From positions 1 to 64,000 of the forward strand of contig CALWGC010000024.1 in the NCBI GenBank assembly GCA_944378105.1: DNA of 64,000 nt. Direction: 5' to 3'. Numbering within the stretch: the first letter of the stretch is position 1; each line of letters starts with the position of its first letter. Made by a program: the position numbers and the translations under genes. The DNA comes from an uncultured Clostridia bacterium. GTDB taxonomy: Bacteria; Bacillota; Clostridia; Lachnospirales; Anaerotignaceae. The notes under the pieces were generated by a model that ran no database searches, was not told the DNA's origin, and saw only the letters and a program-made list of their open reading frames with translations. This document shows positions 901-35,669 of this stretch, in pieces.

Positions 901-1737
901 TCATGCTGTCAATGGCGCAGCCAGAAAAAACCCATACAGCAGCACCAGTACCCCCAGCACAATGCGATAATATCCAAACACTTTAAAATCATGGCCTTTG
1001 ATGTACTGCATCAAAAACTTGATGACGGCCACCGATACCAGAAAGGCCACCAACATCCCGACCACCAACAAACCGCCTTCTGTGGCCGTAAATCCTTCTT
1101 CAAACTTGATCAACTTCAATAAACTTGCCCCAAACATCACAGGGATGGCCAAAAAGAACGTAAATTCTGCCGCCACCGTCCGGCTTACCCCCAACATCAG
1201 AGCCCCCACAATGGTGGCCCCGGAACGGCTGGTGCCGGGAAATACAGCAGCAATCAGCTGAAAAAGCCCAATGAGAAAGGCCGTCTGAAAAGACAACTGG
1301 CTCACTTTGGTCACCGTCGGGCGGGCCGATTTGTTTTTCGTCTCCACCACCAAAAACAATACGCCAAACAAAATCAACATAATGGCAACGGTGGTATAAT
1401 TATAAAACAGCTCGTTGATTTTATCATCAAACAAAAGCCCCACCACGGCCGCCGGCACACAGGCCAGCACAATCTTACACCAAAGTAAAAACTTGGATGT
1501 ACTGATTTTCACTTTTCCGTCCTTGCGGAAAAAAGGCCAAAGCTTTCTCCAATACAACAGCACCACCGCCAGTATGGCGCCAAGCTGCACAACCACCAAA
1601 AATAAATTCCAAAATCCTTCCGAAACATCCATCTTCAAAAATTCTTCCAGCAGGATCATGTGTCCTGTGCTGCTGATGGGAAGCCATTCTGTGATGCCTT
1701 CCACAATGCCATAAATGGCCGCAAACAAATAGTCCAT
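901..1737 (-). CDS. uppP: Undecaprenyl-diphosphatase
   Basis: A 278-residue polytopic membrane protein of the BacA/UppP family. It dephosphorylates undecaprenyl pyrophosphate to recycle the lipid carrier of cell-wall synthesis, and extra copies give bacitracin resistance. The family signatures are present: GIVEGITEWLPISSTGH at the N-terminus and FPGTSRSGATIVGALMLGVSR in the centre, which hold the catalytic Glu, Ser and Arg residues. Length is normal for the family. A GGAGG ribosome site precedes the ATG. It has its own promoter upstream and is separated from arsR by the palindromic operator, so it is probably not metal-regulated. Confidence 0.95.
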   Translation of the reverse strand: MDYLFAAIYGIVEGITEWLPISSTGHMILLEEFLKMDVSEGFWNLFLVVVQLGAILAVVLLYWRKLWPFFRKDGKVKISTSKFLLWCKIVLACVPAAVVGLLFDDKINELFYNYTTVAIMLILFGVLFLVVETKNKSARPTVTKVSQLSFQTAFLIGLFQLIAAVFPGTSRSGATIVGALMLGVSRTVAAEFTFFLAIPVMFGASLLKLIKFEEGFTATEGGLLVVGMLVAFLVSVAVIKFLMQYIKGHDFKVFGYYRIVLGVLVLLYGFFLAAPLTA

Positions 1738-1769
1738 CCATTGTGCCTCCTTTTTCTATTCTGCCTTTC

Positions 1770-1798
1770 ATCATACCCTATCCCTGCCATTTCTTCAA
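1770..1798 (-). promoter_or_regulatory. SigA-type promoter for uppP
   Basis: On the minus strand, TTGAAG and TATGAT are separated by 17 bases, about 33 bases upstream of the uppP ATG. Confidence 0.55.
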
Positions 1799-1816
1799 TA
1801 AAAAAAAGAAGATTGA

Positions 1817-1845
1817 TTGCATTTTGTCCCCTCTTGTGCTACACT
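1817..1845 (+). promoter_or_regulatory. SigA-type promoter of the thi operon
   Basis: TTGCAT and TACACT are separated by 17 bases and lie about 20 bases before the 5' strand of the TPP riboswitch P1 helix. Confidence 0.55.
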
Positions 1846-1864
1846 GGGAAAAGAAAAAATTGCT

Positions 1865-1974
1865 GGGGGTGCTGTCTGCTTTGAAAGCAGGCTGGCTGAG
1901 AGAGTTTTCAACCCTTTTTGACCTGATGCGGATAATGCCGCCGAAGGGAAGCCGTCAAAACAAGCAGACACCCC
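1865..1974 (+). ncRNA. TPP riboswitch (THI element)
   Basis: The conserved thi-box segments are present: GGCTGAGAGAG, then ACCCTTTTTGACCTGAT, GGATAATGCCG and GAAGGGAAG. P1 is formed by GGGGGTGCTGTCTGC and GCAGACACCCC. The RNA senses thiamine pyrophosphate and here controls the salvage operon thiW-thiD-thiM-thiE. The final CCCC of P1 is shared with the downstream terminator stem, so the two structures compete. Confidence 0.95.
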
Positions 1975-2001
1975 TCTTTTTCAAGAAAGAAGGGGTTTTT
2001 T
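1971..2001 (+). terminator. Riboswitch-linked terminator overlapping the thiW ribosome site
   Basis: CCCCTCTTTTT and AAAGAAGGGG form a stem followed by seven T residues. The 3' strand contains AAGGGG, the only plausible ribosome site of thiW, and the T-run ends two bases before the thiW ATG. The same hairpin could therefore stop transcription or hide the ribosome site. Confidence 0.75.
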
Positions 2002-2002
2002 T

Positions 2003-2497
2003 ATGACAAAAACAAAGAAATTAACGGCAGCGGCCATGTTGGTGGCCATCGGGCTTTTAACGGGTACCCTCATTTATATTCCCGTTGGCGCCTCCAAATG
2101 CTTTCCGGTGCAGCATGCCATCAATGTCCTTTGCGCCGTTTTTTTGGGCCCGGCCTATGGGGTGCTGACAGCTTTTTGCATTTCCCTTGGCCGTAACCTT
2201 TTGGGCACCGGCTCCATCATGGCCTTTCCTGGCAGCATGGTGGGGGCGCTTTTGGCAGGGCTGCTGTACCAAAAAACAAAGAGCAAACTGTCTGCTGCCG
2301 TGGGTGAAGTCATTGGCACCGGGATTTTGGGCGGTCTCATCTGTGTACCCATGAGCAAACTATTTCTGGGCACGGAAGTGGGCGCATTGTTTTACGTGGT
2401 GCCGTTTCTCATCAGTAGCGTTGGCGGCGCCATCATTGGCTATCTGATTTTAAAATCCACCGAAATTTTCCGTTTGAGCAAACGACTGAACCAATAA
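2003..2497 (+). CDS. thiW: ThiW, thiazole-type ECF transporter S component
   Basis: A 164-residue protein with about five hydrophobic membrane segments. It resembles ThiW, the predicted substrate-binding (S) subunit that takes up hydroxyethylthiazole together with a shared ECF energizing module. The start follows directly on the riboswitch terminator. It heads a tight operon with thiD (17-base gap), thiM and thiE. No ATPase or T-component genes are nearby, as expected for group II ECF systems whose energizer is encoded elsewhere. Substrate is inferred from the family and from the adjacent thiazole kinase. Confidence 0.9.
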   Translation: MTKTKKLTAAAMLVAIGLLTGTLIYIPVGASKCFPVQHAINVLCAVFLGPAYGVLTAFCISLGRNLLGTGSIMAFPGSMVGALLAGLLYQKTKSKLSAAVGEVIGTGILGGLICVPMSKLFLGTEVGALFYVVPFLISSVGGAIIGYLILKSTEIFRLSKRLNQ

Positions 2498-2514
2498 AAA
2501 GGAGGCTTTTTTCC

Positions 2515-3321
2515 ATGAAACACGTCTTAACCATTGCCGGTAGCGATACCTGCGGCGGCGCCGGTATCCAGGCCGATTTAAAAACCTTCAGCGCCCATGG
2601 CACCTATGGCATGAGCGTCATCACCGCCGTTACGGTACAAAACACCATGGGCGTTTTTGGCTGCCAAGACATTGCACCAGAGATTGTCAAAGGCCAAATT
2701 GACGCCATTTTTGAAGATATCCGCGTGGATGCCGTTAAAATCGGCATGGTGAGCCAAACCGAAACCATCAACACCATTGCCGATTGCCTGGAAAAATACC
2801 AGCCCAAAAATCTGGTCATCGATCCCGTCATGATTTCCAAAAGCGGCTTTGACCTGCTCCAGCCTTCGGCCAAAGAAGCCCTCATCAAACGGCTGATTCC
2901 TCTGGCCACGGTCCTCACCCCCAACCTGCCGGAAGCCGAAGCCATCTGCGGATTGGAAATGAAAAATCTTTCCGATATGGAACGGGGCGCCAAAGCCATC
3001 CACGACATGGGGGCCAAGTACGTCTTTGTCAAAGGCGGCCACCTCTCAGACGATGCCACAGACTTGCTCTATGACGGCAAAACCCTTTTGACCTTCCCCG
3101 GTAAACGCATCGACACCAAAAATACCCATGGCACCGGCTGCACCATCTCCTCTTCCATTGCCGCCAACTTGGCCCTGGGATACAGCGTGGAAGAATCGGT
3201 GCGCCTGGCCAAAGCATACATCACCGACGCCATCGCCCATTCCTTCTCCATCGGTCATGGCGTAGGCCCAACCAACCATTTTTATCGCTTGTACGAGAAA
3301 GCAGGCCTTTCCAATGACTGA
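2515..3321 (+). CDS. thiD: Hydroxymethylpyrimidine/phosphomethylpyrimidine kinase
   Basis: A 268-residue ribokinase-fold enzyme that phosphorylates HMP and HMP-P to HMP-PP, the pyrimidine half of thiamine. Visible signatures are the N-terminal AGSDTCGGAGIQADLKTFSAHGTYG block and the C-terminal anion-hole/catalytic motif NTHGTGCTISSSIAANLA with its Asp-replacing Gly-Thr-Gly-Cys core. GGAGG lies eight bases or so before the ATG. Its stop overlaps the thiM start by eight bases, so the two are translationally coupled. Confidence 0.95.
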   Translation: MKHVLTIAGSDTCGGAGIQADLKTFSAHGTYGMSVITAVTVQNTMGVFGCQDIAPEIVKGQIDAIFEDIRVDAVKIGMVSQTETINTIADCLEKYQPKNLVIDPVMISKSGFDLLQPSAKEALIKRLIPLATVLTPNLPEAEAICGLEMKNLSDMERGAKAIHDMGAKYVFVKGGHLSDDATDLLYDGKTLLTFPGKRIDTKNTHGTGCTISSSIAANLALGYSVEESVRLAKAYITDAIAHSFSIGHGVGPTNHFYRLYEKAGLSND

Positions 3322-4117
3322 TTTTTCTGCCTTGCTGCAAAGCGCCTGCAAAACGATTGCATCCCAAAAGCCCATTGTCCACCAAATCACCAATTTTGTC
3401 ACCATGACCGACTGCGCCAACACCGTCTGCGCCGTGGGCGCTTCGCCGGTGATGGCCTATGCACCGGAAGAGGCGGCGGAGGTGACGGCCCTTTCCCAGG
3501 CCTTGGTGTTGAATTTGGGTACCCCCGACGCCCTCCGCTTTCAAACGGCCATCCGCTGTGGTCAAGTGGCCAATGAAAAGCAGATCCCCGTGGTGCTGGA
3601 CCCGGTGGGTGTGGGGGCCACTACCTTTCGCAAAGAAAACATGGCCCGCCTGCTCCAAGCCGTCCACCCGTCCATCATCAAAGGCAATGTGGCGGAAATG
3701 AAAACCTTGTCCGGTCTTACCCCCGGCCAAAACCGGCTCATCGATTCCTCCGATGCCTTGACGGCACAAACGGAAGAAGCCCTGGTGGCCTTGGCTGCGG
3801 CCCGGAAAACGGTTTTGGTGGTTTCTGGCCCCGTCAATTTTTTGACCGACGGACAAAAACGGCTCCATGTACCCGGCGGTTCCCTCTTTTTTACCCGCTT
3901 TAGTGGAGCCGGGTGCATGACCGGCGCCCTGATGGGGGCCTTTGCGGCCGTTTGCCCGCCTTTGGAGGCGGCCTATTTGGCCGTTTGTGTCATGAACGCC
4001 TGCGGAGCCTGGGCCGAAGAAAAGGCCTGCGGTGTCGGCTCCTTCAAACAATATCTGTATGACGGTCTTTCCCGTCTGCCAAAACTGGAGAAAGAAGGAA
4101 TGTTCCTTGGATCGTAA
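3314..4117 (+). CDS. thiM: Hydroxyethylthiazole kinase
   Basis: A 267-residue enzyme that phosphorylates the thiazole alcohol for thiamine salvage. Family motifs include VHQITNFVTMTDCANTVCAVGASPVM near the N-terminus, DPVGVGATTFR in the middle, and the catalytic segment FSGAGCMTGALMGAF, whose Cys is typical of ThiM. It starts inside the end of thiD and overlaps thiE. Its presence with thiW, and no thiC or thiG in the operon, points to salvage of the thiazole rather than de novo synthesis at this locus. Confidence 0.95.
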   Translation: MTDFSALLQSACKTIASQKPIVHQITNFVTMTDCANTVCAVGASPVMAYAPEEAAEVTALSQALVLNLGTPDALRFQTAIRCGQVANEKQIPVVLDPVGVGATTFRKENMARLLQAVHPSIIKGNVAEMKTLSGLTPGQNRLIDSSDALTAQTEEALVALAAARKTVLVVSGPVNFLTDGQKRLHVPGGSLFFTRFSGAGCMTGALMGAFAAVCPPLEAAYLAVCVMNACGAWAEEKACGVGSFKQYLYDGLSRLPKLEKEGMFLGS

Positions 4118-4733
4118 GCAATTGAAATTATATCTGGTCACCGATACCCATGCCCTGCGGGGCCGGGACTTTTTTGACGTGGTGGAGGCGGCGCTGATGG
4201 GTGGCGTCACCATGGTGCAGCTGCGGGAAAAAACGCTGCCTACTGCCGATTTTTTGAAAAAAGCCAATGCCCTGCGCACCATGACAGAGCGCTATGGCGT
4301 GCCGCTCATCATCAACGACCGGCTGGACATTGCCTTTGACAGCAAGGCTTGCGGGCTTCATGTGGGGCAAAAAGACATCTCCGCCAGCGACTCCCGTCGG
4401 ATTTTGCGCAAAGACACAGGCAAAATCCTTGGCGTGACCGCCAACACCATCGCCCAGGCCCAGGCCGCCGAAGCTGCCGGGGCGGACTATATCGGCGCCG
4501 GAGCCATGTTTGCTACCCAAACCAAAGGCGACACCACGCCCCTTTCCAAAGAAGCGCTGAAAGCCATCGTGGAAAGCATTTCTATCCCCGTGGTGGCCAT
4601 TGGCGGCATCAATGTCCAAAACGCCAAAGAGCTGACCGGTCTTGGATTGGCTGGCCTTGCCATCTCCTCCGGCATCATGGGCGCAGAAAACGTCTATGAA
4701 ACAGCCAAGGCTTTGGCTGCACTGAAATTATAA
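4107..4733 (+). CDS. thiE: Thiamine-phosphate synthase
   Basis: A 208-residue TIM-barrel enzyme joining HMP-PP and thiazole phosphate to thiamine phosphate. Motifs seen: YLVTD at the N-terminus, QLREK, INDRLDIAFDSKACGLHVGQKD, ADYIGAGAMFATQTK and AIGGI. I choose the TTG at 4107, preceded by AGGA with eight bases spacing; it overlaps thiM by 11 bases and gives the usual family length. The longer frame back to 4032 would lie wholly inside thiM. A strong terminator follows. Confidence 0.93.
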   Translation: MDRKQLKLYLVTDTHALRGRDFFDVVEAALMGGVTMVQLREKTLPTADFLKKANALRTMTERYGVPLIINDRLDIAFDSKACGLHVGQKDISASDSRRILRKDTGKILGVTANTIAQAQAAEAAGADYIGAGAMFATQTKGDTTPLSKEALKAIVESISIPVVAIGGINVQNAKELTGLGLAGLAISSGIMGAENVYETAKALAALKL

Positions 4734-4751
4734 CGTTGTTCCAACAAAAAT

Positions 4752-4787
4752 ACCCCCTGCCAGGGTTCCCCGGCAGGGGGTGTTTTG
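4752..4787. terminator. Terminator between thiE and the SLH gene
   Basis: CCCCCTGCC and GGCAGGGGG form a strong stem followed by TGTTTT on the plus strand. It can end the thi operon and also lies just past the stop of the convergent SLH gene. Confidence 0.85.
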
Positions 4788-4790
4788 TCG

Positions 4791-7265
4791 TTATTCTACT
4801 ACATTTTCTTCAAACTGCATCAACATCGTTGCAACCTGGGCCCGGGTGGCTACGCCTTGGGGCTGTAGATACCCATTTCCCATGCCTTGTATGATTTCTT
4901 CGTTGACGGCCCATTGCACGCTGTTTTTGGCCCAAGACGAGCACAGATAGCCGTCGCGGAATGCATTGAGATTGCCGCTTACACTGGTGGAATAGCCGCA
5001 ATAGCCGGCATAGCGGTAAAGCACCGCCGCCATCTGTTCTCTGGTCAAAGGATCATTTGGTCCAAATTTTCCATTGCCATAGCCTTCCATCAGTCCCTTG
5101 TTGTAGGCCCAGGAAACGGCGTCAGCATACCAGGCGTTTCTGGTCACATCGGTAAAGGACGTATTGCCGCTGTTCCACGGCCTTCCTTCCCGGTTATAAA
5201 GCACCTGGGCAATCATGGCGCGGGTGAACAGGGTGTTTGGTTCAAACCGATGCTGGGACATGCCTTCCATCAGCTCTGCTTCATAGACATAGCCCACGGA
5301 TTCATAGAACCAATCGTCTTCGTCCACATCGTCAAAAGGGTTTTTCCACTGTGGTTCTTCTTCCTCTTCTTCTTCCTCCACCTGGGTAAAGGATACGGTG
5401 ATATACACTTCCTTGTTTGGCATGGTGAAGGTGGCCTCGTTGTCATCTTCCCAGTCCAGTTTGATGATATAGTCATCCTCGTCGGTTACTACCACGTTTT
5501 TCACTTCATACCCTTTGGCCGGTTCCACCGTCAAAGTAACTTTGTCGTCTTTTCTGGCCCGTTCGGGGTCCACTTGGGCCGAGCCGCCTTTGGTCACCGA
5601 TACATGAATATCCTTTTTCGATGGCCGGTATTGTGGGCTGCCGGTGTCGTCGCTATTATCTTTTTTCCAAAGGGCTGTCAGCGTGGCGTCGCCTTGGATG
5701 GTATAGTCCGCATTGGCGCCATAGGTGGTGGTGCCGTCGCTCCAACCGCGGAATTTATAGTTTTTGCGGCTAGGGGCTTGCGGTGTTTTGATGACGGTTT
5801 CATATTTTTCCGAAAATCCACCCGCTACCACATCGTTGTATCCTTTAAATTCCACATGATAGGTGTTTCTTTTGTAATAAGCAAACACCTGATTGTCTTC
5901 CACTTTTACTTTTTGAAACGTAAAATGCTCATAGCTTGGCAGTTTCTCATAAACCTCTTCTTTTGCTACGTTTTCCACCTTCCGGTCCGGGTCTTCTGTA
6001 TGGACGTCATCCGCCACATTTTCCAGGCACGGAATGATGGTATAGATTCCTTCCGGAATGGCCGGGCCTTTTTTCACCAAATAGGCCGCATCGGTTTCTT
6101 CCAGATGGAAATTGGTTCCGGCTTGGATTGGGGCCGTGTGTCCATTTTTCTGGATGGTGGCTTCTTGGGCAATGGTGATTGGGTCTGTGAGATCGGCCAC
6201 CAAAGTCAGATTGGTTTTTCCCTCTGCCAATCCGTCTGCGATGGTTTTGTAATAGGTTTTTCCGTCTGTCCCTTTCACCACAGCGCCTGCGGCCGCCGCC
6301 GTTTCATCGGTATATGGCCCCACTTGATACGTCGTTGCGGCTTTCAACTGGCCATAACCTGCCGGTACATACGCTTCCATATCCTGCACAAAGGTCCCGC
6401 CTTTGGCCGTCAATGTGCCGCCGTTTACGGTGATGGCTTTTTCAAAAACGCCGTTTTCCACCGTCAAAGCGCCACTGGTCACCGTGGCCCCCTGGTACTG
6501 CCCGGTCACAAGGCGCACCGTGCCGCCTGTCACGGCCAAATTACCAGAAAGCACCACGTCGCTTGCATCATCGGCATTCTGGGCGATGGTGGTGGTGCCT
6601 GCGGCTGCTTGCACTGCCACAGGGGCCTGGATTATGGCACTATCCAGGGTCAGTTGTGCACCGTTTTGGGCTACACCAACGCCGCCTGCCGTAAGGGAGA
6701 TATTTTCCAGTTGTAAAATGCCGCCTGCTGCATTTTCCAAAGCCGTATTTTGGCCACTGCGATAGGTGCCGCCGACGATGGTGGCAGTACCATGATTTTC
6801 CAAAATACCGTTTGTCGCCTGCACGCATCCTTTCTGACCCTCTGGGGAGCTATCGGTCAGTTTCCAGGTGGTATTGGCCGGCACCTGAAACACGGCCTGA
6901 TCCAATGTGGATACCAACGTATGACCGTTTAAGTCAAAGGTGATAGTTTGCCCTGCCGTAAAAATAATGGGCTCTGTCAAAGCCATCGACTGGGTTACTT
7001 TCATCGTGGCCGGCGTTGTTCCTACTGCCTGGATTGCTTCTGCAAAAGAAGCATATTCTTTCGTTTCCGTTCCCGTGGTCACCGTTACCACCGTACCGGT
7101 GGCGGGGATGGGCTTTGCCGGCTCCAATGGTGTCATGGGCACCGATTGCTCGTTGGTCGGTTCGCCTCTTTGGCTGGGGGTCGCCCAAGCGGTCCATGGC
7201 AAAGCCGATGCTGTCATAGTCAAAACCATGGCCAACGCCATGCCTTTTTTCCAATTCCGTTTCAT
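4791..7265 (-). CDS. Secreted S-layer-homology (SLH) surface protein
   Basis: An 824-residue exported protein. Residues 1-30 form a signal peptide (basic start, hydrophobic core, AWA cleavage site). Residues of about 45-310 are short Gly/Thr/Val-rich repeats of the GGT/GG(T/V) kind that suggest a beta-helix. About 415-530 holds an InlB B-repeat-like module ending in the typical DATLTALWKK, then a beta domain with KGYEV, then an acidic linker of consecutive Glu, then three SLH domains to the C-terminus, which anchor to pyruvylated wall polymer. The second ATG (7265) is chosen because AGGAGG sits eight bases upstream; the first is too close. Function beyond wall attachment is unknown. Confidence 0.9.
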   Translation of the reverse strand: MKRNWKKGMALAMVLTMTASALPWTAWATPSQRGEPTNEQSVPMTPLEPAKPIPATGTVVTVTTGTETKEYASFAEAIQAVGTTPATMKVTQSMALTEPIIFTAGQTITFDLNGHTLVSTLDQAVFQVPANTTWKLTDSSPEGQKGCVQATNGILENHGTATIVGGTYRSGQNTALENAAGGILQLENISLTAGGVGVAQNGAQLTLDSAIIQAPVAVQAAAGTTTIAQNADDASDVVLSGNLAVTGGTVRLVTGQYQGATVTSGALTVENGVFEKAITVNGGTLTAKGGTFVQDMEAYVPAGYGQLKAATTYQVGPYTDETAAAAGAVVKGTDGKTYYKTIADGLAEGKTNLTLVADLTDPITIAQEATIQKNGHTAPIQAGTNFHLEETDAAYLVKKGPAIPEGIYTIIPCLENVADDVHTEDPDRKVENVAKEEVYEKLPSYEHFTFQKVKVEDNQVFAYYKRNTYHVEFKGYNDVVAGGFSEKYETVIKTPQAPSRKNYKFRGWSDGTTTYGANADYTIQGDATLTALWKKDNSDDTGSPQYRPSKKDIHVSVTKGGSAQVDPERARKDDKVTLTVEPAKGYEVKNVVVTDEDDYIIKLDWEDDNEATFTMPNKEVYITVSFTQVEEEEEEEEPQWKNPFDDVDEDDWFYESVGYVYEAELMEGMSQHRFEPNTLFTRAMIAQVLYNREGRPWNSGNTSFTDVTRNAWYADAVSWAYNKGLMEGYGNGKFGPNDPLTREQMAAVLYRYAGYCGYSTSVSGNLNAFRDGYLCSSWAKNSVQWAVNEEIIQGMGNGYLQPQGVATRAQVATMLMQFEENVVE

Positions 7266-9095: not shown

Positions 9096-9112
9096 AAACA
9101 AAAGTTGTAATC

Positions 9113-9192
9113 TTTGCCCAGGCGGTCGGCATCCTCTTTCATACTCCCCGTGGTTTCTTCCACTTGTTTCCGCCAGTTGTATGAAAGTCATT
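9113..9192 (-). ncRNA. ZTP (pfl) riboswitch controlling purH
   Basis: The minus-strand leader contains the pfl-motif segments in order: AACTGGCGGAAAC, GTGGAAGAAACCACGGGGAG with its short GTGG/CCAC hairpin, and the 3' conserved CCGACCGCCTGGGCA, whose CCGCC can form the pseudoknot with GGCGG. This RNA class binds ZTP and AICAR phosphate and upregulates purine and one-carbon genes; PurH consumes AICAR with a formyl-folate. Confidence 0.88.
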
Positions 9193-20180: not shown

Positions 20181-20212
20181 AAAGTGCCGGTTTTTTAATG
20201 AAAAAACCGGCC
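20181..20212 (-). terminator. Terminator containing the gpr stop codon
   Basis: GCCGGTTTTTT and AAAAAACCGGC pair around CATT; the gpr stop TAA lies within the 3' arm, so the last codons of the gene are part of the hairpin. A long T-rich tract follows on the minus strand. Confidence 0.75.
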
Positions 20213-21118
20213 TTGATCTTTCCGTTTAAAATTGGGATGGACGGCGGCATTGATGGCAGAGGCCAATGTGGCCGCCAGGCGGTCCACCACCGCATCCATT
20301 TCCTTTGGTGTCACAAAAAGCTGGGATGCATAAGGCACCAGCACTTCCTCCACCGTTTCTTCCCATCGGCTCTCCTCCGCCTGGGCCAGCGCCAATGTGT
20401 CATACACCAGTGTTGCTGCATCCACCACCGTCGGCACGCCAATGGCAAACACCGGCACCCCCAGCGTCTCTTTGCTTAAAGCCATCCGTTTATTGCCCAC
20501 GCCGGAACCTGGCGCAATGCCGGTATCGCTTAACTGTATGGTGGTATTGATCCTAGAAAACTTTCTGGCCGCCAGTGCATCCACCGCCAGCACCACATCG
20601 GGCTTGGCCTGCTGTACAATGCCCCGCACCATCTCCCCCGTTTCCAGTCCCGTAAGCCCCATCACCCCCGGAGACACAGCCGCCAAAGGGCGAAAGGTTT
20701 CAGCCAATTCCTTAGGCAAAGTCTGCTGTAAATGGCGGGTGACAAAGACCTGCTGCACCACCTTGGGCCCCAGGGCATCGGGGGTGACGTTCCAATTTCC
20801 AAGGCCCACCACCAGCACCGTTTCGTTTCCTTTTAATCCCATCAGCCGCTTGAGCGCGTCTTCCACCACCGCCCCCGCCTCTTCCAAGGCCTCTGGGTGA
20901 TTTTCTTTCAACGTCTCCCCTTCGATGGTCCAATAGCGCCCCATGGGCTTTCCCATCTGCTCGCTGGCCTTTGGCGTTTGGATTTCCACCTCGGTCAGAG
21001 TCACAAAGGTGCCCTTTTTTTCCACCGCCAAAACGCCTTCTTCCAATGTAATTTGCCGGCTTTGCAGCCATTCTTTGTTTTCCAGCGCCAAGTCTGTGCG
21101 CCCATACCATTTGTTCAA
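20195..21118 (-). CDS. gpr: Germination protease GPR
   Basis: A 307-residue aspartic protease (MEROPS A25) that degrades small acid-soluble spore proteins at the start of germination; its presence marks a spore former. Family blocks seen: GRTDLALE, in which the zymogen is processed, VVGLGNWNVTPDALGP, and DALAARKFSRINTTIQLSDTGIAPGSGVGN. The start is TTG at 21118, preceded by AAAGGAGG at nine bases; the frame reaches further up to 21154 without a better ribosome site. In Bacillus this gene is forespore-specific. It directly follows the AraC regulator gene on the same strand, which may be incidental. Confidence 0.95.
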   Translation of the reverse strand: MNKWYGRTDLALENKEWLQSRQITLEEGVLAVEKKGTFVTLTEVEIQTPKASEQMGKPMGRYWTIEGETLKENHPEALEEAGAVVEDALKRLMGLKGNETVLVVGLGNWNVTPDALGPKVVQQVFVTRHLQQTLPKELAETFRPLAAVSPGVMGLTGLETGEMVRGIVQQAKPDVVLAVDALAARKFSRINTTIQLSDTGIAPGSGVGNKRMALSKETLGVPVFAIGVPTVVDAATLVYDTLALAQAEESRWEETVEEVLVPYASQLFVTPKEMDAVVDRLAATLASAINAAVHPNFKRKDQGRFFH

Positions 21119-21165
21119 ACCAGACCGCCTCCTTTTGCCACTAGTCTGTGCCAAACAAGGGGCCT

Positions 21166-23924: not shown

Positions 23925-23952
23925 CACCTTTTTGCGCTTGCTGCATATATTG
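23925..23952 (+). promoter_or_regulatory. Sigma-K-like promoter in front of sigK
   Basis: CAC, 16 bases, CATATATTG. The sigma-K consensus is AC, 16-17 bases, CATAnnnTA. It lies 31 bases before the sigK ATG. The same CAC-16-CATAnnnTG form occurs before the glycosyltransferase-collagen operon at 34846-34873. Confidence 0.45.
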
Positions 23953-23982: not shown

Positions 23983-24660
23983 ATGTCCGTTTATGTAGAA
24001 GCTTATCCCGTTTTTGCCTGTACCGGTACCAATTCTTTTCCCAAACCCCTTTCCCCTAAAGAAGAGCAAGACTGTCTTGCGCGCATGCGCGATGGAGATG
24101 TGACGGCAAGAGACACTTTGGTGGAACACAATCTGCGCCTGGTGGCCCATATCGTCAAAAAATACGCCACCGGAAACGACACCGAGGACTTTATCTCCAT
24201 CGGCACCGTGGGGCTGATGAAAGCCGTCCTCTCCTTCCACCCCGACAAAAACACGCGCCTGGCCACCTACGCGGCCCGCTGCATTGAAAACGAAATTTTG
24301 ATGTACTTTCGTTCCAGCAAAAAATACCGCGGCGATGTCTCCTTACAAGAGCCCATCACCCGCGATAAAGACGGCAACGAAGTCACCATCCTCGATACCC
24401 TTTCTCAGCAGGAAGCACCCTTCAGCGACACCTTGGAAAAAAATTGCCAACTACAAGCCCTATCCTCCTTCCTCGATACCCTACCCCAACGAGAAAAACA
24501 AGTGCTCATCCTCCGCTATGGTCTGGACGGCGGCCAAGAGCGACCCCAGCGGGAGGTGGCCGACGCCTTGGGCATTTCCCGTTCCTATATCAGCCGCATC
24601 GAAAAAAAGGCCATCGAAACCTTGCGCGCGGCCCTGGCGGCCGAAGAGCTGCTGTTTTAA
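23983..24660 (+). CDS. sigK: RNA polymerase sporulation sigma factor SigK
   Basis: A 225-residue sigma-70 factor for late mother-cell transcription. Region 2 reads LVEHNLRLVAHIVKKY and ISIGTVGLMKAV, then RLATYAARCIENEILMYFR, which is strongly SigK-like; region 4 ends in ALGISRSYISRIEKKA. The gene is continuous, with no skin-type interruption. The stretch before FPKPLS is about 18 residues, shorter and less hydrophobic than the Bacillus pro-sequence, so proteolytic activation by SpoIVFB may be reduced or absent, as is known for Clostridioides difficile. GGAGGTG precedes the ATG. Confidence 0.93.
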   Translation: MSVYVEAYPVFACTGTNSFPKPLSPKEEQDCLARMRDGDVTARDTLVEHNLRLVAHIVKKYATGNDTEDFISIGTVGLMKAVLSFHPDKNTRLATYAARCIENEILMYFRSSKKYRGDVSLQEPITRDKDGNEVTILDTLSQQEAPFSDTLEKNCQLQALSSFLDTLPQREKQVLILRYGLDGGQERPQREVADALGISRSYISRIEKKAIETLRAALAAEELLF

Positions 24661-29395: not shown

Positions 29396-29413
29396 CATCT
29401 TTTTTTCATAGAA

Positions 29414-29453
29414 ATGGCAGGCCATGCGCCGCCAATACCGCATGGCCTGCCCG
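29414..29453. repeat. GC-rich inverted repeat
   Basis: GGCAGGCCATGCG and CGCATGGCCTGCC pair perfectly around a ten-base loop, without a T-run. It lies between the YczE-like gene and the terminator below. Confidence 0.6.
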
Positions 29454-29501
29454 TTTGATTAAATTAGCAGCCCCCCTCACAAGCTTTGGGCTGCCTTGCC
29501 C

Positions 29502-31780
<2,279 letters not shown>

Positions 31781-31849
31781 GGCTCCTTCCTCCCCCGCCC
31801 TTTTGTTTCTTTCAATTCTTCCCATGTGGGCCCTTTGGGCGCATAAAAG

Positions 31850-31880
31850 AAAACCACGGGTTTTTCCGTGGTTTTTCGCT
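31850..31880 (-). terminator. Terminator of mutY inside the element
   Basis: AAAACCACGG and CCGTGGTTTT form a stem around GTTTTT. It lies 70 bases past the mutY stop and separates mutY from the recombinase gene, so the recombinase probably has its own promoter. Confidence 0.75.
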
Positions 31881-31949
31881 TTTTCTTGTGTTCCATATCT
31901 TCGCCTTCTTTTTTTCCTTTGCAATCACTTTATGCGCCAAGGCCGTTTT

Positions 31950-33065
31950 TTAACACCGGCGCAATAATTCGGCTTCAAAGGCCGCAAAGGCCGAAGGCAA
32001 GGGGTAAGCTTGCTTCAGTTGGGTCGGCGTCACCCATAAAAAGGGCGCCACTTCCTCCTCTGCTTCCACCCAAAAACCGGTCATGTGCCACTCGATATGG
32101 GTAAAAATATGCTTGGCTGTTTTGAGCGGCAGCGCCTTGGCTTCTATGCCCCAAGTTTCCAACACCGCCTGGGCCTCATTGGGGGTGCCTTCTTTTTGGG
32201 GAAATTCCCATAAATCGGCCAACAAGCCTTTGGAAGGCCGCTTTTGTAGTGCAATTTTCCCCTTGTGGTGGAGCAAAAACACCAGCCGTTCCTCCACCCG
32301 CCGTGGTTTTTTGGCCGCTTTCACTGGGTATTGCAGCATGGTATTTTCCCGAAACGCCGCGCAGTGGGCCGCCACGGGGCATTGGTCGCACAAAGGCGCC
32401 CCATTGGGCAGACAAACGGTGGCCCCCAGTTCCATCAACGCCTGATTAAACGCCCCCGTCATGGGATGGGGCAAAATTGCTTGTACCTGCTTTGTAATCT
32501 CGTTTTTCACCGATTGTTTCATAATGTCGCCGCCATTGGCCGTCCAGCGGGTCACCACCCGCAGCACATTGCCATCCACCGCCGGCACCGGCAACCCATA
32601 GGCAATGGAGGCAATGGCCCCCGCCGTATAAGGCCCAATGCCCGGTAACTGTAACAACGCCTCATAATCGGCCGGCAGTTCTCCGCCATACTGTTCCACC
32701 ACCACCTGGGCACATTTTTGCATATTGCGCACCCGGTTATAGTACCCCAATCCTTCCCATAGCTTTAACAGCGTTTGTTCCTTGGCCTCTGCCAAGTCCT
32801 GGATGGTGGGTAGCGCTTCCAAAAAACGCTGAAAATAAGGTTTCACCGCCTCCACTCTGGTTTGCTGCAGCATAATTTCCGACACCCAAACCCGATAGGC
32901 CGTGGGGTGATTACGCCAAGGCAGAATGCGCGCATGTTCCTCAAACCAATGTAATAACGGAGCCACCATCTGGGGCAGATGGTCCGTCTGGGGCGGCTTT
33001 TCTTCTATTTCTACCGTTTCCTGTAACGATAATTCCAGTTGTACCGGTTCTTTTTCCTCTGTCAT
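31950..33065 (-). CDS. mutY: A/G-specific adenine glycosylase MutY
   Basis: A 371-residue base-excision enzyme that removes adenine opposite 8-oxoguanine. Catalytic Glu is in [11 protein letters not shown], the helix-hairpin-helix in [14 protein letters not shown], the catalytic Asp in AVDGNVLRV, and the 4Fe-4S ligands in C-x7-C-x2-C-x5-C ([18 protein letters not shown]). A NUDIX-like 8-oxoG recognition domain ends the protein. The ATG overlaps the stop of the truncated collagen frame (ATGA), and a consensus promoter lies 33 bases upstream, within the element. An unusual cargo for a recombinase-borne element. Confidence 0.95.
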
Positions 33066-33712
33066 GTTCTCCAAATCCTTTCTGGCCTTGTCCCTTTATT
33101 GTAGAGGGCGAACAAGCATTTGTCAATGCGGGGCGCAAAACCGGTATGCCCAGTGGCGCCTGTGGCACCCGTCTGGCCGGTGGCTCCGGTGGCGCCGGTT
33201 GCACCGGTAGCGCCCGTTGGGCCGGTTGGGCCGGTGGCACCCGTTGGGCCAACGGCAGTAATCAGGGTATAATCTGGCGATGTGCCAGGGATCCCGCTTG
33301 GGTTATTGATATCGGCACGATAGAGGCTGCCGTTATAATACACAAAATCGCCTGCGGAATAGAAGGCAAAGGGGCTAAATGCCGTTGCCGTATCCAAGCC
33401 TTGGCCTGTGGCCCCGGTGGCGCCGGTTGGGCCGGTAGCACCTGTGGCTCCCGTTGGGCCGGTTGGGCCGATGGGGCCTTGCAGACCTTGCGGCCCCTGG
33501 GGACCGGTGGCACCCGTTGGGCCGGTTGGGCCCTGAGGACCGTTTAAACCTGGCGCACCGGTGGCACCGGTTGGGCCGGTTGGGCCTTGGCACCAGCAAG
33601 TTGCGCCACAACAGGAGTTACACCCGTTTTGGCAACCATTGGAACAATGATTTTGGCAGCCACTTTGGCAACCACAGCGATTGGCGTTACTTCTCACTCC
33701 GTAACAATACAT
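33062..33712 (-). CDS. Collagen-like spore-surface protein, N-terminal part (split gene)
   Basis: In the present arrangement it encodes 216 residues. Residues 1-42 are Cys/Asn/Gly-rich ([15 protein letters not shown]). Then come collagen repeats ([10 protein letters not shown]), a carbohydrate-binding-type module with [17 protein letters not shown], a second collagen stretch, and, after the ACT at codon 187, a 29-residue out-of-family tail from the element. ATG 33712 follows AGGAGG at eight bases and overlaps the glycosyltransferase gene by 19 bases. Joined to the part at 29529-30365 it gives a complete BclA-like glycoprotein with trimerising C-terminus. Confidence 0.9.
33098..33126 (-). promoter_or_regulatory. 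Consensus SigA promoter for mutY, inside the element
   Basis: TTGACA, 17 bases, TACAAT on the minus strand, between the recombination site and the mutY ATG. It makes mutY independent of the host gene's promoter. Confidence 0.75.
33133..33174. other. Recombination half-site at the right end of the intervening element
   Basis: Element arm GCGCAAAACCGGTATGCCCA, then the GT crossover dinucleotide (33153-33154), then collagen repeat. Shares CCAGT with the left end; reading frame across the joint is preserved at an ACT codon. Confidence 0.8.
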
Positions 33713-34800
33713 ATTGTTTCCTCCTCTTTTCTTTTTTTTGCAAAATAGGCTTCGTTCCATTTCACTGCATCAGATTGGGGACGGAAGGATTTGGCCACAT
33801 CATTCCACTTTTGCGCTTCTTTCCAATTTCCCTGTCGGTCATAGCAAAGACAAAGCTGGATGGCCGGCAAATAATGATAACATTCTTCCTGTACAAAACC
33901 GCCGAAATTTTTGTCTAACTTCGTCCGAAAGGCCGCCTCATACCAGAAGATGGCCTCGGCCAAGCGGTTTTGCTGCAAAAAGTGATACCCCAATGCACAA
34001 CAAAGTTCCCCGCGGGGCACCGAAAGCTTCAGCCCTTCCAACAGGGCCTCCAACGCCTTTTCCTCTTCGCCCAGCTCATCAAAGGCGGCCGAGCGCAGAC
34101 GGCAGGCTTCCAACTGATCCGGCAGCCACCCATCCTTGCGGCGCAAAAACGCCTCAAACCGCTCCGTCGCTTCCTGCCACAGCCGGTGGTAGAATAACTC
34201 CCGGCCAAAATAGTAAAGTTCTCTGGCAGAAAAAGACTGGCCCTTTGCTTCCATATCCCGATAGATATTCAAATTTCGGTCGGGATCGGCCACACGCAGT
34301 TTTTTGTGGTACACCGTAATGTCTTCGTGTAAAATTTTCCCAAAGGGTGCCACCACTTCGTGCACCCGCCCTTCCCAAACGGGACGATGGATGTTTTTGA
34401 TGAGCCGCTCCCGCCGGAAGCGGAAGGTGGGGTTGCCTGCTTCGTCAAAGCTTGTGGCGTATTGCATCATCACCACATCGACATCCAAAACCGTCAGCCG
34501 TTTTTTCAGCGCCAACAGTTTCTCCTGCTCCGCCTTTGGCAGTACGTCATCGGCATCCAGCCAGAGCCAAAATTCTTTGGTGGCCTTCAAAAACGCTGCA
34601 TTTCTGGCGGCAGCAAAATCGCCCTGCCAGGTAAAGTCATAGACTTTGTCGGTAAATTGCCGCGCAATTTCTTTGGTGCGGTCGGTGGAACCGGTATCCA
34701 GAATGATGATCTCATCGGCCACAGGCCCCACGCTCTCTAAACAACGCCCCAACACCTCCTCCTCATTTTTCACAATCATGCATAAACTAATGGAAATCAA
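33694..34800 (-). CDS. GT2-family glycosyltransferase with TPR-like tail
   Basis: A 368-residue enzyme. The N-terminal GT-A domain has [31 protein letters not shown] and the metal-binding WLDADD; the C-terminal 160 residues are helical repeats of TPR type ([24 protein letters not shown]). It starts at TTG 34800, with AGGGGGTGA upstream, and overlaps the collagen gene by 19 bases, so the two are coupled. A GT2 gene next to a collagen-like exosporium gene recalls sgtA beside bclA3 in Clostridioides difficile; it probably glycosylates Thr in the collagen repeats. A sigma-K-like promoter precedes it. Confidence 0.9.
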
Positions 34801-34845
34801 AGCCTCACCCCCTCAACTGGATCGGAAGGTTTCCTTCCTTGATAA

Positions 34846-34873
34846 CAGAGTATGAAGAAGGGGGAAATATGTG
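34846..34873 (-). promoter_or_regulatory. Sigma-K-like promoter of the glycosyltransferase-collagen operon
   Basis: On the minus strand CAC, 16 bases, CATACTCTG; same form as before sigK. It starts transcription about 38 bases before the TTG start. A perfect GGAAGG-TTT-CCTTCC palindrome (34824-34838) lies at the start of the transcript. Confidence 0.5.
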
Positions 34874-34925
34874 AGAAAAAAGAGAAAAAAAGCAGGTCTA
34901 TCTTTCTTTTCGCCTTTTGGGCAAA

Positions 34926-34966
34926 CAAAAAGCCACTACAGAACCTTGGTTCTGTAGCGGCTTTCC
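34926..34966 (-). terminator. Terminator of the V-ATPase operon
   Basis: AGCCGCTACAGAACC and GGTTCTGTAGTGGCT (minus strand) form a 15-bp stem with a mismatch, followed by TTTTTGTTTG. It lies just past the stop of the last gene. Confidence 0.85.
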
Positions 34967-34982
34967 TCTTCTTGCGCCTTTT

Positions 34983-35669
34983 TTAGCCCACTTCTTTTTG
35001 GAAAGCGGCTTCATCCCGTTTCCGTTTTTCTTCGATGGCACGTTGTGCAATCAAATCTTTCACTTTCATCAAACGGGTGGTATTGGCACGATCATTTTCT
35101 TCCAATTTCTGAGAAATATATTTGATGGTTTCCTGATAATTGGGAATCATCACGTTTTCCAGAGCGTTCACACGGCGTCTGGTTTTTTCAATTTCCTGGG
35201 CCAACAGCTGGGTGGTTTTTTCACTTTCTGCCAGCAACAGCAGCGGCTCCATGGCGCGGGAGAAAGCTTCTGTGGCGCTATCCAATTCGCCGGAGGTGAA
35301 GGCCAGGCCATAGGGATAGATTTCGCCCTTGCCGCCTTCTTCTTTGAATTGGAATTTGGGCACATCTACACTCATGATGTTTTTGGTCCCAACGCCCACC
35401 GCAATCTTTTGCCGTGGCATCATCAAGGCCTCGCCCATCCATTCTTCGCTCATCACACCGCGGGCAATGATAAAGCTTTTGTAAGCTTCTTCCAAAGCCG
35501 ATTCCGCTTCCATTCTCAGCCGTTTGTTTTCTCTCACCAGCTCCAGAAATTGCTTCATCAGCTCATCCAGCTTGTCTTTGAGCAATTTGTGGCCCCTGCT
35601 TGCTGTTTTCAGCTGCTTTTTCAGATTGGTCATTTCCATTCTGGTAGGGTTTACGTTTAATCTTGCCAC
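34983..35669 (-). CDS. ntpD: V-type ATP synthase subunit D
   Basis: A 228-residue central rotor-shaft subunit, mostly two long helices (MARLNVNPTRMEMTNLKKQLKTA and, at the C-terminus, ENVMIPNYQETIKYISQKLEEND). It starts at GTG 35669, where AAGGAG is eight bases upstream and overlaps the stop of subunit B; the frame's upper end at 35678 is not well spaced. Last gene of the operon, ended by a terminator. Confidence 0.93.
   Translation of the reverse strand: MARLNVNPTRMEMTNLKKQLKTASRGHKLLKDKLDELMKQFLELVRENKRLRMEAESALEEAYKSFIIARGVMSEEWMGEALMMPRQKIAVGVGTKNIMSVDVPKFQFKEEGGKGEIYPYGLAFTSGELDSATEAFSRAMEPLLLLAESEKTTQLLAQEIEKTRRRVNALENVMIPNYQETIKYISQKLEENDRANTTRLMKVKDLIAQRAIEEKRKRDEAAFQKEVG

Follow-up and report, generated by a model that had tools for sequence, protein, structure and literature searches.

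A probable sigma-K-class promoter before a glycosyltransferase–collagen operon split by a two-gene serine recombinase element

Within the window analysed here, 64,000 nucleotides at positions 1–64,000 of contig CALWGC010000024.1 (assembly GCA_944378105.1, genome 2.04 Mb), a glycosyltransferase–collagen operon lies behind a promoter of the sigma-K class resembling one in front of sigK, and a 2,789-bp element carrying only mutY and a serine recombinase gene interrupts its collagen-like gene. We propose that sigma-E-timed excision of the element in the mother cell would restore the collagen gene, which could then be read from the sigma-K-class promoter, and we give this model as a whole a probability of about 0.77. 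The genus is represented by three members, G000 (the genome of the window), G001 and G002.

Promoter boxes in front of sigK and the glycosyltransferase gene

Both genes are preceded by a site of 28 bases in which CAC is followed after 16 nt by CATA, as the original prediction held, running from 23925 to 23952 before sigK and from 34873 to 34846 before the glycosyltransferase gene.

34846–34873, minus strand: sigma-K-class promoter of the glycosyltransferase–collagen operon, CAC-16-CATACTCTG; full site CACATATTTCCCCCTTCTTCATACTCTG
33694–34800, minus strand: SgtA-like GT2 glycosyltransferase with a TPR-like C-terminal half (PF00535, 1.1e-21)
23925–23952, plus strand: sigma-K-class (autoregulatory-type) promoter of sigK, CAC-16-CATATATTG; full site CACCTTTTTGCGCTTGCTGCATATATTG
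23983–24660, plus strand: sigK, uninterrupted, 225 aa (NCBIfam NF004471 SigK, 293.6 bits, cut-off 252)

The two boxes had been placed at matching distance from their genes. This is not the case, the −10 box standing 30 nt ahead of the start codon of sigK (ATG at 23983) and 45 nt ahead of that of the glycosyltransferase gene, which starts with TTG at 34800 and has a strong ribosome binding site, GAGGGGGTGAGG. The glycosyltransferase box recurs in place in G002 (CACATATTTCCCCTTTCTTCATACTCTG) and G001 (CACCTTTTTCTCTGTTTTTCATACCATG), the sigK box is likewise kept in both, and the two boxes also stand at the same place across much of the family. No promoter of the sigma-70 type was found upstream of the glycosyltransferase gene. 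The window holds three CAC-16-CATAnnnTR sites in all, the third lying at 6942 to 6915 on the minus strand.

The sigK reading frame is intact, and an interruption by a skin element in this genome is thus rejected. The protein scores 286 bits against the equivalog model TIGR02846, under its cut-off of 298.65; a separate SigE, encoded elsewhere in the genome behind a spoIIGA-like gene, passes the SigE cut-offs. The gene for the germination protease GPR lies near sigK (20195–21154), and the minus strand has a ZMP/ZTP riboswitch at 9109–9190 (65.8 bits, Rfam RF01750).

Counting the motif genome-wide, as the original prediction had proposed, gave a divided answer. With a spacer of 16, CAC-16-CATAnnnTR occurs at 25 sites in the 2.04 Mb, compared with 7 sites of the pattern in reverse, but when spacers of 14–19 are pooled there is no genome-wide excess (57 + 57 sites against 54 + 59 in the control). 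Since the pooled counts equal the control, the motif alone is not enriched, and we rejected genome-wide counts as proof of a promoter. For so short a motif, counts by themselves are no basis for a judgment. Its density of ~6 per Mb per strand corresponds to a chance of ~6e-4 that any particular upstream stretch of 100 bp contains a site. What argues for the boxes as promoters is their conservation at the same place across the genus and much of the family.

A family-wide footprint of the sigma-K class

Promoters of C. difficile sigma-E and sigma-K have a common −10 element and differ at −35, which is ATA for the former and AC for the latter (PMC3789822). With one script we scanned the upstream regions of the family for the glycosyltransferase gene (n = 25) and sigK (n = 23), taking the sigma-E targets spoIVA (n = 29) and spoIIID (n = 31) as control. 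AC-16/17-CATAnnnT was present in 13 of the 25 glycosyltransferase and 11 of the 23 sigK upstreams, against 0/29 for spoIVA and 1/31 for spoIIID. ATA-15/16-CATAnnnT was distributed in the opposite manner, being absent from all 25 glycosyltransferase and all 23 sigK upstreams, and found before spoIVA in 12 cases and spoIIID in 7. Shuffled sequences gave 0.2–0.6 matches per case (0.23 for AC-16/17-CATAnnnT at the glycosyltransferases). We dropped dpaA as a sigma-K control gene, the genus being without a true match.

The glycosyltransferase and sigK sites have a −10 close to CATAnnnTA and AC at −35 across a spacer of 16–17 nt, distinct from the ATA of sigma-E. Both had been predicted to fit AC-16/17-CATAnnnTA apart from the last base, and this is borne out. 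The −10 reads CATAnnnTR in 24 of the 25 glycosyltransferase upstreams, mostly CATAnnnTG, and a final base at odds with the B. subtilis consensus is therefore usual in this family. About half of these upstreams have no exact AC at −35, and several read GGCA there.

An early mother-cell promoter read by sigma-E would share the CATA −10, which suits both factors alike, and sigK of C. difficile is first transcribed by sigma-E, its second promoter being of the sigma-K type (PMC3789822). We nevertheless consider it distinctly improbable that the shared box belongs to sigma-E, given that the ATA form is missing from every glycosyltransferase and sigK upstream, whereas spoIVA has it and never AC. There is an ATA in the G000 box, but the 13 nt between it and CATA fall short of the 15/16-nt spacing that was scanned. 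The spoIVA and spoIIID control led us to reject a reading of the shared box as a sigma-E site.

The sigma-K-like class that had been claimed for both boxes is thus well supported by comparison, with use by sigma-K itself the likely corollary. Such a footprint is consistent with late mother-cell expression of the interrupted operon, as was originally suggested. The collagen-like genes bclA1–3 of C. difficile are members of the sigma-K regulon (PMC3789822).

A collagen-like gene in two parts

The last 19 nt of the glycosyltransferase gene overlap the start of a Gly-X-Y collagen-like gene, so that the two form one operon. The collagen gene is found in two parts.

33153–33712, minus strand: collagen-like gene, 5′ part as far as the att core (PF01391)
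29529–30365, minus strand: 3′ part, with a BclA_C-like C-terminal domain and no in-frame start of its own at the junction

The frame of the 5′ part continues into the element and stops at 33062. The match of the C-terminal domain to BclA_C is 27.7 bits, below the cut-off of 38 bits. A GT2 gene (PF00535) immediately 5′ of a Gly-X-Y gene (PF01391) with a BclA-like C-terminal domain is the layout of the SgtA–BclA pair. In C. difficile, sgtA is likewise immediately upstream of the collagen-like exosporium gene bclA3, and SgtA places O-GlcNAc on Thr of the collagen repeat; unlike the gene described here, bclA3 is not reported there as interrupted (PMC7157674). The sigma-K-class promoter, the neighboring glycosyltransferase and the BclA_C-like domain together point to a role in the spore for the collagen gene, presumably as a BclA-type surface protein and substrate of the glycosyltransferase, by which it would be glycosylated.

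The two-gene element

Between the two parts lies the element, bounded by putative attachment sites and encoding its recombinase beside them, as in skin-type elements. It has two genes, and the prophage-like content usual in skin-type elements (which gin does not share) is absent.

33131–33176, minus strand: attL, with a probable AC core at 33154–33153
33098–33126, minus strand: sigma-A-type mutY promoter inside the element, TTGACA-17-TACAAT, 11/12 matches
31950–33065, minus strand: mutY, A/G-specific adenine glycosylase (TIGR01084, 329 bits, over cut-off)
31926–31953, minus strand: possible sigma-E-like recombinase promoter, TTA-16-CATAAAGTG
31850–31875, minus strand: hairpin with a T-rich run after it, between mutY and the recombinase gene (−15.9 kcal/mol, z −4.2)
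30356–31780, minus strand: large serine recombinase, 475 aa, with resolvase, recombinase and zinc-ribbon domains (PF07508, PF00239, PF13408)
30342–30387, minus strand: attR, with a probable AC core at 30365–30364

Each genome of the genus has one mutY match at E <= 1e-30, and between G000 and G002 the gene has dN 0.078 and dS 0.91. TTGACA-17-TACAAT is the only minus-strand match within 29400–35100, and TTGACA-17-TANAAT precedes mutY at the left end of the element in G000, G002 and G001; from its sequence we take this to be a vegetative promoter.

The recombinase also matches the phrog_95 integrase. It is under purifying selection (dN 0.29 and dS 1.9, G000 against G002) and keeps the RLS resolvase motif. 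Against the NCBIfam XisF model it scores 104 bits where the cut-off is 375, so it is not an XisF member, and membership of the Ccr family was rejected in the same way. No close relative was found outside the genus in 344 genomes of the order, the best having 40% identity; comparison with recombinases from named genomes was uninformative, the closest having only 31–44% identity.

Predicted rejoining of the collagen gene

When the flanks are joined at AC, they give a frame of 464 aa in G000 and 416 aa in G002, compared with 216 and 202 aa unjoined. The Gly-X-Y register is intact through the joint, and the C-terminal domain is gained. The predicted attB junction of G000 is GGCGCCACTGGTGTAACCGGC. 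The corresponding attP has a dyad centered on the core, with 14/22 positions paired in G000, 17/22 in G002 and 15/22 in G001, and in all three genomes the AC join is the best-scoring dyad position among all those tested. The insertion is present in 3/3 genomes of the genus, the halves of the gene lying on different contigs in G001. The predicted split is real, and a gene that would need excision to be expressed whole is the reading that the restored frame favors.

In one assembly there is a sequence of the kind expected for the excised circle. Contig C78 of G001 opens with 99 bases identical to the 3′ end of the recombinase gene (L071 1–99 and 2724–2822) and passes from them directly into the mutY side of the element. 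This junction is probably the attP of the circle, although a tandem copy would read identically. As 99 is a common assembler word length, the contig probably records circle-derived reads.

All three assemblies show the gene split, as they would if the element were a dead insertion and the two halves relics. We regard a permanent split as highly improbable. The distal half has kept its frame without a start of its own and is under purifying selection (dN 0.047 and dS 0.66, G000 against G002), the recombinase is likewise under purifying selection and retains its RLS motif, and at the junction the Gly-X-Y register is perfectly restored. Excision of the element from the collagen gene is, on this evidence, very likely, and by its anatomy the element belongs with the sporulation gene-intervening elements.

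Proposed timing of excision

When the recombinase is made probably depends on a promoter separate from, and earlier than, that of the operon, one that the original prediction had not noted. CATAnnnTG is found between mutY and the recombinase gene in 3/3 species, as CATAAAGTG in G000, CATATACTG in G002 and CATAAAATG in G001, against a background in the window of ~0.019 per 100 bp per strand. It lies ~15–16 nt past the mutY stop codon in G000 and G002, and at the end of mutY in G001. The triplet 16 nt to its 5′ side is TTA in G000, TTG in G002 and ATA in G001 (giving a full ATA-16-CATAAAATG). In G001 the likeness of the box to the sigma-E form is clear. It is less marked in G000 and G002, where the TTA or TTG makes a weaker case for the possible control by sigma-E.

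The hairpin and T-rich run lie between this candidate promoter and the start of the recombinase gene, and similar hairpins with a T-rich run are found downstream of CATAnnnTG in G002 and G001. The hairpin may end mutY transcripts or attenuate the recombinase. It overlaps a 39-aa open reading frame (31850–31895) with a KRKTTEKPVVFFY core common to G002; 37 nucleotides of this region are identical between G000 and G002, which fits an RNA structure equally well. The frame is a candidate leader peptide or tiny (directionality) factor, or may be a mere part of the terminator. A search of the element for a directionality factor gave nothing convincing, only an unassigned frame of 35–55 aa before the recombinase gene, without a PHROGs match.

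In growing cells the collagen gene would be split, with mutY read from its own sigma-A-type promoter. During sporulation sigma-E would probably switch on the recombinase in the mother cell, leading to the joining of attL with attR at the AC core and departure of the element as a circle. RNA polymerase with sigma-K could then read the rejoined glycosyltransferase–collagen operon, while the forespore would retain the element and hence mutY. These promoters are most simply read as sigma-E acting first, on the recombinase, and sigma-K later, on the rejoined operon. The skin recombinase of B. subtilis is timed in the same sigma-E-first order. Expression of the skin recombinase is sporulation-specific (PMC5595907).

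Excision might alternatively be random or linked to growth phase, as a form of phase variation of the spore or cell surface, with no timing by sporulation sigma factors. The circle junction comes from an assembly not known to derive from sporulating cells, excised forms of yin in C. botulinum were seen at every time sampled (PMC10747680), and read-through from the sigma-A promoter of mutY into the recombinase gene could occur. Yet the hairpin and T-rich run separate the two genes, CATAnnnTG precedes the recombinase in three species, the interrupted operon has a promoter of the sigma-K class, and loss of the element throughout a population would cost the only mutY found. Untimed excision is thus unlikely, and we favor sigma-E-timed removal in the mother cell.

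Comparison with known intervening elements

The skin elements in sigK (SpoIVCA in B. subtilis; CD1231 and CD1234 in C. difficile) similarly split a mother-cell sporulation gene with a serine recombinase element, whose excision restores it (PMC5025042). Here, in contrast, it is a spore-surface collagen gene that is interrupted, and sigK is whole; the element is 2.8 kb, with phage genes absent, the sole mutY found as cargo and no RDF homologue identified. Closer in content is gin, in gerE of B. cereus ATCC10987 (GirC/GirX), a non-prophage element with a DNA-repair gene (recJ) aboard and a dyad at att; however, it measures 28.6 kb, with 31 genes and three recombinases, and its distribution among strains is patchy (PMC5595907), whereas the element here, with its two genes, occurs in each of the three species of the genus that were examined.

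SP-beta in spsM (B. subtilis), yin in yabG (C. botulinum) and vfbin in spoVFB also have late mother-cell targets (PMC4191935, PMC10747680), and SP-beta interrupts a spore-surface gene as well, one for a glycan (PMC4191935). All three are prophages or prophage-like, in other target genes. The fdxN element of heterocyst-forming cyanobacteria is similarly excised by a serine recombinase (XisF) in a terminal cell type, in a different lineage and target. A literature search of partial coverage yielded no paper on a collagen or bclA gene split by an intervening element, or on mutY as the cargo of one. The element is unusual in its target, in its size, in having the sole mutY found as its cargo and in its presence in all examined species of the genus.

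Collagen genes as a probable repeated target

Insertions at collagen genes are found in other genera. In G020 (L072 2809–7340, contig C40) a different element of 3,557 bp splits the first collagen gene after the same glycosyltransferase. Besides its own recombinase, this element carries a second collagen gene and a DUF6870 open reading frame. At an AC core its attP has a dyad of 17/22, and joining the flanks gives a frame of 328 aa. In G016 and G030 (L264 2099–4784 and L265 5700–7827) a related DUF6870–recombinase pair abuts antisense collagen sequence, L265 having a short collagen fragment only. In G081, of another family (L269, reverse strand, ~1730–4800), a DUF6870-like frame and a recombinase are directly followed by a startless collagen 3′ half, and the 5′ half is absent from the contig stretch examined. 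Collagen repeats thus look like a repeated target of serine recombinase elements.

In these elements the DUF6870 frame precedes the recombinase. CATAnnnTG lies 36–44 nt before it in G020, G016 and G030 (L072 5128, L264 2099 and L265 5700), accompanied by ATA-17 in two of the three. The DUF6870 frames are a candidate family of directionality factors timed to the mother cell.

Significance

Only a handful of genes are known to be targets of programmed excision in the terminal mother cell, and spore-surface collagens would join that list. A 2.8-kb element with a housekeeping repair gene as cargo, genus-wide in the species examined, suggests a route to permanence, in which the cargo penalizes loss from the germ line and loss in the mother cell carries no penalty. 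We see even odds that the genus has domesticated a minimal two-gene developmental element holding the only mutY found. Because mutY would be under selection both in dividing cells and in the forespore, the element would be kept, and removal timed by sigma-E and then sigma-K in the doomed mother cell would assemble the spore collagen. Gly-X-Thr collagen genes would then be a recurrent landing site in the order, and the insertions in other genera suggest that they are a favored target.
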